Of a stretch of DNA of 64,000 bases, positions 1-2,158 are shown one piece after another. The stretch is from Methanococcoides sp. Lineage in GTDB: Archaea > Halobacteriota > Methanosarcinia > Methanosarcinales > Methanosarcinaceae. Position 1 is the first letter of the stretch. Every line of letters starts with the position of its first letter. Under the pieces are notes generated by a model. The model was not told the origin of the DNA and did not search any database. It was given only the letters and a program-made list of their open reading frames with translations. The stretch covers positions 1-64,000 of the forward strand of contig JAIORJ010000109.1 in the NCBI GenBank assembly GCA_021108185.1. The letters run 5' to 3'. A program made the position numbers and the translations under genes.

Positions 1-783
1 GAGGGAACTCTGGAAAAAGTTGATATCTGGGAAAGCAAGGAAAATGCCCGAAGATACTGGGAAATGTCACAGAACAAGGGTGCTGACCGCATTGAACAGA
101 CTTTAAGTTAGCTCGATCTTAAAGTGGATTCGCGTGTTCTCGACATTGGTTCCGGACCGGGTGCTCTGGCCATCCCTATCTCCAAACGTGTTCGGGAAGT
201 GGTGGCAGTTGAACCCTCGGACGGGATGATGTCCGTATTGCAGGAAAATATCGAGGAGCTGGGGATCAGCAATGTCAAGTGCATTCACAAAGGCTGGGAA
301 GATATTGATATTGATGAACTTGGTGGGAAGTTCGACATTGTCATTGCTTCTTATTCGCTGAATGTGCCCGATATAAGGCAAACGTTCGAAAAGATACAGG
401 CGGTTTCCAGTGGCTCTGTTTATGTTTACTGGTTTGCAGGGGAGACATCCTGGGATGATCAATACCGTGCCATATGGCCTGCTCTGCATAATGAGGAATA
501 TCACAGTTCCCCTAAATGCAATGTCATGTACAATGTCCTTTATGACATGGGTATATTTCCCAATATGGAGGTGTTCCCAATGCAGAGAAGTATGACCTTT
601 TCTTCCATGGATGAAGCGGTCAAACACTATGTTCCGCATTACAGGGCATACACTGATGCACAGGTCTCAATACTCCGGGAATATCTGAAAGAGATCCTGC
701 CGGTCAATGAAGATGGTTCCATACTGCACCTTGGGGATACCACGCGGGTCCGGATGTGGTGGGACAACGCTTCTGATGATTGA
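1..783 (+). CDS. Class I SAM-dependent methyltransferase, 5' partial, with an internal in-frame TAG
   Basis: The frame is open from the left edge to TGA at 781-783 except for one TAG at 109-111. Upstream of it the codons read as a normal methyltransferase N-terminus (WESKENARRYWEMSQNKGAD, then IEQTLS). Downstream, LDLKVDSRVLDIGSGPG brings in SAM motif I, followed by an acidic motif II (VVAVEPSDGM) and FDIVIASYSLN. The only start after the TAG is GTG at 124, immediately before motif I, which would remove the usual N-terminal helix. In this lineage TAG can be read as pyrrolysine, so one uninterrupted protein is the simplest reading; a recent nonsense mutation is the alternative. The methyl acceptor is unknown. 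The gene is convergent with the MATE gene, 7 bp away. Confidence 0.75.
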
Positions 784-790
784 AAAACGA

Positions 791-2158
791 TCAGGAAAAA
801 TCTGGATGGATGTCCTTTTTGAAAAGACTGTATTCCTTTGCCAGCATGACGAAGGTCACCAGAAAAGAGAGTCCGTCAGATAATGGGAATGCCATCCATA
901 CTCCCTGAAGTTCAAAGAAACGAGGGAGTATCAGGACAAGTGGTATCAGGAAGAGCACCTGTCTGCTAATTGATAGGAAGAACGCTGGCTTCGCTCTTCC
1001 CAGTGTCTGATATATGGATGCTCCTACGATCTGGAATCCGACCAGGGGCAGTGCAAGTGCCATTATCCTCATTGCTGCTTTTCCTGCCTCTATCAATTCT
1101 TGGTCAGTGGTGAATATGCTGAACAACTGTTTTGGGAATATGAAGAGCAGTAAGAACCCTGCAATTGATACCACTGTAGTTATTTTCATGGCCAATGCTG
1201 TAGAACTGATGACCCTTTCGTAGTTCTTTGCACCATAATTGAACCCCACTATAGGTTGCAGGCCCTGTACAATGCCTATCATTGGCATGAAAGTGAACAT
1301 GAACAATCTATTAACGACACCAAATACTGCTATCGGAATATCTCCTCCGTAAACAGCAAGCACATTGTTTATCACTATCACCATAAGGCTGCCCGATGCA
1401 CTTCTTGCAAATGAGGAAGTTCCGATGGTGACCATTTCTTTCAGTATCTCGGGGTGGGGTACGAAATATCTGATGTGGAAATTAAAACTGCTCATTCCCT
1501 TTGTGAAATAATATAGGAGGTAGAGGGCACTTACCACCTGTGAAATAACGGTTGCAATAGCTGCACCTTTTATACCCATATTCAGTCCAAAGATGAATAT
1601 GGGGTCAAGGATTATGTTAAGCCCTGCTGATATTACCATTGTAAACATGGCCACTCTTGCATTTCCTTCCGCACGAACAATGTTATTTAGTGTCATGGAA
1701 AATGCAAAGAAGATCGTGCCGTAGAGGATTATCTTTGTATAATCGTATGCAAATGGCATGATAGTTTCTGTGGCACCGAACATTCTCAGCAGGGGTTCAA
1801 TGTAAACGATACCTAATATCGTCATAACGATGCTAAGTGCAAGTATGGCAGTTATGGCGTTTCCGAGTGCGATATCTGCACGTTCGTGTATCCTTGCACC
1901 TAAGCTTCTGGAGATGATGGACGCACTTCCTATGCCTATTGTTAGTGCTATTCCCATGATTATCATCTGGATCGGGAAGGCAATGGTTATCCCTGCAATA
2001 CCCTGTACACTTTCCGCTCCAAGTGCCCGTCCTACAAAAATAGTATCTACAAGACTATAGAGGGCCTGGACTATCATTCCAATGGTCGCAGGCAGTGAAA
2101 GCTTAAAAAGGACCTTTTTAATGCTATCTTCTGAAAGCATTCTGGCTCTCTCGTTCAT
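791..2158 (-). CDS. MATE family efflux transporter
   Basis: This 455-residue integral membrane protein has the length and about 12 hydrophobic segments of the MATE family, in two similar halves. MATE proteins export drugs or metabolites in exchange for Na+ or H+. Typical features are the N-terminal LPATIGMIVQALYSLVDTIFVG segment (split here for length: LPATIGMIVQ then ALYSLVDTIF) and the GxxxxNxxLDPIFIF-like loop near residue 190. The ATG at 2158 is preceded on the minus strand by GAGGAAA, with a TATA-like TTATAA near 2199-2206, so it probably has its own promoter divergent from the UbiA gene. The substrate cannot be told from sequence. Confidence 0.9.
   Translation of the reverse strand: MNERARMLSEDSIKKVLFKLSLPATIGMIVQALYSLVDTIFVGRALGAESVQGIAGITIAFPIQMIIMGIALTIGIGSASIISRSLGARIHERADIALGNAITAILALSIVMTILGIVYIEPLLRMFGATETIMPFAYDYTKIILYGTIFFAFSMTLNNIVRAEGNARVAMFTMVISAGLNIILDPIFIFGLNMGIKGAAIATVISQVVSALYLLYYFTKGMSSFNFHIRYFVPHPEILKEMVTIGTSSFARSASGSLMVIVINNVLAVYGGDIPIAVFGVVNRLFMFTFMPMIGIVQGLQPIVGFNYGAKNYERVISSTALAMKITTVVSIAGFLLLFIFPKQLFSIFTTDQELIEAGKAAMRIMALALPLVGFQIVGASIYQTLGRAKPAFFLSISRQVLFLIPLVLILPRFFELQGVWMAFPLSDGLSFLVTFVMLAKEYSLFKKDIHPDFS

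Follow-up and report, generated by a model that had tools for sequence, protein, structure and literature searches.

An in-frame amber codon in a Methanococcoides methyltransferase gene, probably an incidental pyrrolysine codon

The methyltransferase gene and the position of its TAG

The window, a stretch of 64,000 nucleotides that forms bases 1-64000 of contig C8 in a 2.32 Mb Methanococcoides assembly of 230 contigs, opens inside a gene for a class I SAM-dependent methyltransferase that contains a single in-frame TAG (Table 1). In frame 1 the translation reads ...RIEQTLS up to the amber codon and LDLKVDSRVLDIGSGPGALAIP... beyond it, and it runs on to a TGA at 781-783. Window base 1 is also base 1 of the contig, and the start codon of the relatives, an ATG, would lie 87 bases farther upstream, so the gene is 5'-truncated and about 29 codons are lost. 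With the TAG read through, the protein is recognized by Methyltransf_25 (E 7.6e-13) and related Pfam models, of which Methyltransf_23 (28-156) and CbiT (33-115) run across the TAG, and a fold search returned generic class I methyltransferases alone (YcgJ, TmtA and BioC-like). Pfam and NCBIfam give SAM methyltransferase models only, in agreement with the first-pass annotation, which had placed the amber codon inside a methyltransferase and outside the known methylamine methyltransferases. CpaM (corrinoid protein-associated methyltransferase, NF043040), the best NCBIfam match and one that involves the SAM domain, was rejected at 47 bits against a cut-off of 180. Motif I starts eight codons after the TAG and directly after GTG 124, so that a start beyond the amber codon would cut the protein at this motif, as had been anticipated. 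The gene neighbours in relatives, named from sequence, encode putative secreted proteins and a transporter of the MATE type.

Table 1. Coordinates of the features discussed (bare numbers refer to the window; L and C numbers are locus and contig handles).
Feature	Position	Strand	Remark
Class I SAM-dependent methyltransferase, TAG read through	1..783	+	5'-truncated, ends in TGA
In-frame TAG (amber), putative pyrrolysine	109..111	+	equals Glu66 (GAG) of the M. seepicolus ortholog
GTG, first possible restart 3' of the TAG	124..126	+	lineage-specific; GCT in close relatives
SAM-binding motif I, VLDIGSGPG	136..162	+	invariant alignment columns and reading of the family motif
Cluster of differences from M. 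seepicolus	105..183	+	13 differences, 11 at third codon positions; TAG inside
Transporter-like gene	791-2158
pylB	L059:906-1967	-	contig C4; ends in TAG
CobD-like aminotransferase-like protein	L059:3730-5232	+	500 aa, tandem pair
CobD-like aminotransferase-like protein	L059:6083-7579	+	500 aa, tandem pair
HAD-type phosphatase	L057:6467-7144	+	ends in TAG
Kinase or GNAT acetyltransferase gene, single TAG	L046:14000-16741	+
Kinase or GNAT acetyltransferase gene, single TAG	L088:5258-7486	+
Kinase or GNAT acetyltransferase gene, single TAG	L090:6896-9391	+
Kinase or GNAT acetyltransferase gene, single TAG	L097:17572-18153	-
PAS protein, single TAG	C6:47669
Gene with single in-frame TGA	C29:618
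mtmB fragment, profile 410-450	L004:3-125		contig end
mtmB fragment, profile 410-450	L005:1501-1623		contig end
Glu-to-TAG gene in relative G017	L151, near base 622,768		557 aa
Glu-to-TAG gene in relative G017	L124, 87,530		201 aa
Glu-to-TAG gene in relative G017	L167, about 2,055,866		219 aa

An ortholog free of the stop occurs in all ten other Methanococcoides genomes searched (77-96% identity), the closest named relatives being Methanococcoides seepicolus (96%) and M. alaskense (95%). Every one of the other Methanococcoides orthologs found (L008-L017, L037-L039) has GAG (Glu) at the TAG site, and homologues outside the genus show Glu, Asp, Gly or Ser. The alignment proposed in the first-pass annotation thus finds TAG in the window's genome only, and the residue replaced is of the Glu/Lys/Gln type that it had guessed. 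By this comparison the TAG is the product of one G-to-T change, GAG to TAG, in one lineage and at a variable residue. Given GAG in all congeners and E, D, G or S farther out, it is not a conserved functional pyrrolysine. In an AlphaFold2 structure prediction for the complete M. seepicolus ortholog (mean pLDDT 86.6), Glu66 lies directly after the helix of residues 57-65, in the loop before the strand 74-78 that leads toward motif I; this placement, together with the variability of the site, suggests that the residue is solvent-exposed.

Pyrrolysine machinery and use of TAG in the genome

The genome carries the complete pylT-pylS-pylB-pylC-pylD set together on contig C4, including a tRNA-Pyl with a CTA anticodon and a PylS that scores 434 bits (cut-off 178), which answers the check for these genes that the first-pass annotation had advised. 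PylB, PylC and PylD are frames that adjoin pylS and were named from sequence and gene order rather than by a family model; a missed match to PF21360, which suggested that PylC was absent, proved misleading, as a PylC-like frame sits beside pylB. MtmB is present as well, and MtbB with its in-frame TAG served as a positive control, with Dimeth_Pyl matching at 832 bits across the codon (residues 6-467). Fragments of mtmB lie at the ends of contigs C9 and C54, where the assembly was probably interrupted by repeated mtmB copies. Near the pyl cluster lie two tandem, similar, CobD-like proteins with Cys-rich C-terminal parts, and a nucleotidyltransferase-like gene stands between them.

Of the 57 supported or long genes in the window, 35 terminate with TGA, 22 with TAA and none with TAG, which bears out the earlier remark that no confident gene there uses this stop. 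The same holds more widely: among 445 genes under purifying selection, from a comparison in which about 1.5 Mb of this genome was set against 1.2 Mb from a relative with a 92% identical methyltransferase copy, 252 end in TGA, 191 in TAA and 2 (0.45%) in TAG. Of the stop triplets in antisense DNA 21% are TAG, and of those in intergenic DNA 19%; the deficit at gene ends has a P of about 1e-37 at the 19% expectation and of 4e-8 even at 5%. TAG-ended genes amount to 4-5% in Methanosarcina and 1.6% in 'Ca. Methanomethylophilus alvus' (PMC4153887). The two exceptions are pylB and a HAD-type phosphatase. In pylB the TAG is followed by 42 open codons up to a TGA, and the 95% identical pylB of the relative has TAG at the same place; pylB also ends in TAG in M. 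burtonii and others, and this codon has been described as a real stop (PMC2933860). If the pylB TAG is a real stop, termination at UAG may still occur in this genome. The TAG of the phosphatase gene lies 20 codons before a TAA, and the relative has AAA (Lys) there. TAG is therefore essentially unused as a terminator, which is one mark of a 'Pyl code' genome, and the value of 0.45% suggests that Methanococcoides is near full reassignment of the codon.

Because antisense frames overwhelmed a census of all TAG read-through frames, it was replaced by terminal-codon counts, by Pfam domains that span a TAG, and by a paralog and ortholog scan from which mobile, multi-stop and start-site artefacts were set aside by hand. 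Single TAGs inside a Pfam domain of an otherwise intact gene were found in HATPase_c twice (two histidine kinases), in the GAF domain of a GAF/PAS histidine kinase and in a GNAT acetyltransferase, and these four are candidates for further incidental pyrrolysine proteins. A PAS protein also has a single in-frame TAG. Among comparable intact genes the homology scan returned one single TGA and no TAA, the numbers being small, and a strict two-genome count of in-frame stops (2 TAG and 1 TGA here, 1 TAG in the relative) is weakly informative alone. The relative G017 has lineage-specific Glu-to-TAG changes of its own, in three genes whose frames run uninterrupted in the window's genome. Annotated by the standard table 11, the methyltransferase gene and several of the kinases and enzymes described here would come out split or truncated.

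How the UAG codon is probably read

Most likely, in our reading, plain amber suppression inserts pyrrolysine at the UAG, and the codon was fixed by near-neutral drift and has no special role. A G-to-T change would have turned GAG into TAG at a tolerant position in one Methanococcoides lineage, and tRNA-Pyl(CUA), charged by PylS, would let ribosomes read the codon as pyrrolysine. Suppression of this kind would be context-free and would need no dedicated insertion element, and translation would yield the full-length enzyme always or in a good share of cases. In window positions 1-800 neither PYLIS nor any other credible Rfam element was found, the PYLIS_2 of mtbB in the same genome scoring 112.7 bits as a positive control, and RNA folding downstream of the TAG is no stronger than in shuffled sequences (z 1.23). 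In the loop that follows the N-terminal helix and immediately precedes the motif I strand, pyrrolysine would then replace Glu, with no special chemical role in a family that tolerates E, D, G or S there. Near-neutral drift would keep the TAG allele in a genome that has almost given up TAG terminators. We infer the incorporation of pyrrolysine, its efficiency and the retention of enzyme activity. An amber codon introduced in Methanosarcina acetivorans was read through only in part, at an apparent 20-30% (PMC2933860), and truncated protein could therefore make up much of the methyltransferase product.

The T could also have been miscalled at a low-coverage contig end, the true codon being GAG, and an error of sequencing or assembly, while unlikely, would account for a TAG that sits 109 nt inside the edge of C8, one of 230 contigs, is known from this one genome and is absent from relatives. 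Differences private to this genome do pile up around it, with 9 per 100 nt at 100-200 and about 1-2 on average elsewhere. Against such an error, 11 of the 13 differences in 105-183 fall at third codon positions, as random errors would not, and the cluster for this reason looks like genuine coding divergence, perhaps a short recombined allele; moreover, single in-frame TAGs recur well inside contigs elsewhere in the genome. A further 6 private differences occur in 100 nt at 900-1000, inside the transporter-like gene.

The codon might instead terminate translation, the gene being a recent pseudogene or null allele that is dead or dying. The confinement of the stop to one lineage would suit such a loss, as would the several paralogs in Methanococcoides and the wider family, which could compensate for it. 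It is nevertheless quite improbable, since the sequenced part of the gene bears no second lesion, TAG almost never terminates here, and the pyl machinery is present. Among five close orthologs, moreover, this lineage has no private amino-acid change other than the TAG, against 5 private silent changes; the other close lineages have 5-7 private amino-acid changes. On this comparison the sequence downstream of the TAG shows the pattern of purifying selection. The gene is intact downstream, but a very recent null mutation would look alike, and the third-position pattern and the private-change count neither validate the TAG base itself nor exclude a recent null.

Very doubtful, too, is termination or stalling at UAG with a restart at GTG 124, although GCT of close relatives has become GTG five codons after the TAG and the frame for a shortened 219-aa methyltransferase is open. 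The restart product would lose both helices before motif I, which all homologues keep and in which the conserved W39, E43 and A45 lie, and no Shine-Dalgarno sequence is evident just upstream of the GTG on reading of the sequence. The same GTG would serve a nutritional switch for which pyrrolysine had been co-opted, with the full-length enzyme made only at high pyrrolysine supply (methylamines) and the short form otherwise; we regard this as extremely improbable. The first-pass annotation had left open whether the residue is incidental or has a new role. Its incidental reading gains from the pyl set, the Glu ancestry, the rarity of TAG stops and the selection downstream, and its new role is disfavored by the variable E/D/G/S site, the loop before motif I and the single lineage. 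As incidental pyrrolysine, the codon would be one more example of how an ordinary gene in a methanogen with pyl genes can acquire an amber codon and tolerate it.

Comparison with known systems

The methyltransferase shares with MtmB, MtbB and MttB an in-frame UAG, the same genome and the same tRNA-Pyl. Those enzymes are corrinoid-dependent, with pyrrolysine at the active site, a conserved UAG, and PYLIS in mtmB and mtbB, whereas the gene studied here is SAM-dependent and of class I, has its UAG in one lineage and is without PYLIS. A functional active-site pyrrolysine methyltransferase was accordingly rejected on family models, UAG conservation and PYLIS.

At the level of the genome, some archaea reportedly read all TAG codons as pyrrolysine, according to a recently proposed 'Pyl code', and the depletion of TAG observed here fits that proposal. 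Low-TAG genomes such as that of 'Ca. M. alvus', with 16 extra predicted pyrrolysine proteins (PMC4153887), likewise combine depleted TAG stops with scattered lineage-specific TAGs in ordinary genes; the present case differs in concerning Methanococcoides, with 2 of 445 conserved genes in a partial genome sample and evidence from gene sequences.

The closest precedent for the methyltransferase TAG is Thg1 of M. acetivorans (tRNA-His guanylyltransferase; Heinemann et al. 2009). The published accounts describe a non-essential pyrrolysine found in that species only and ascribe it to neutral evolution (PMC3639795, PMC2933860). On those accounts the two share an amber codon in one species, in a non-methylamine gene of a pyl-bearing methanogen; they differ in gene, genus and fold, and pyrrolysine was seen physically in Thg1, where here it is deduced. 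The genome has pylTSBCD, homology extends across the UAG with selection downstream of it, and homologues have sense codons at a variable site. To judge from these features, the TAG of the methyltransferase is most likely another case of the already known incidental pyrrolysine.
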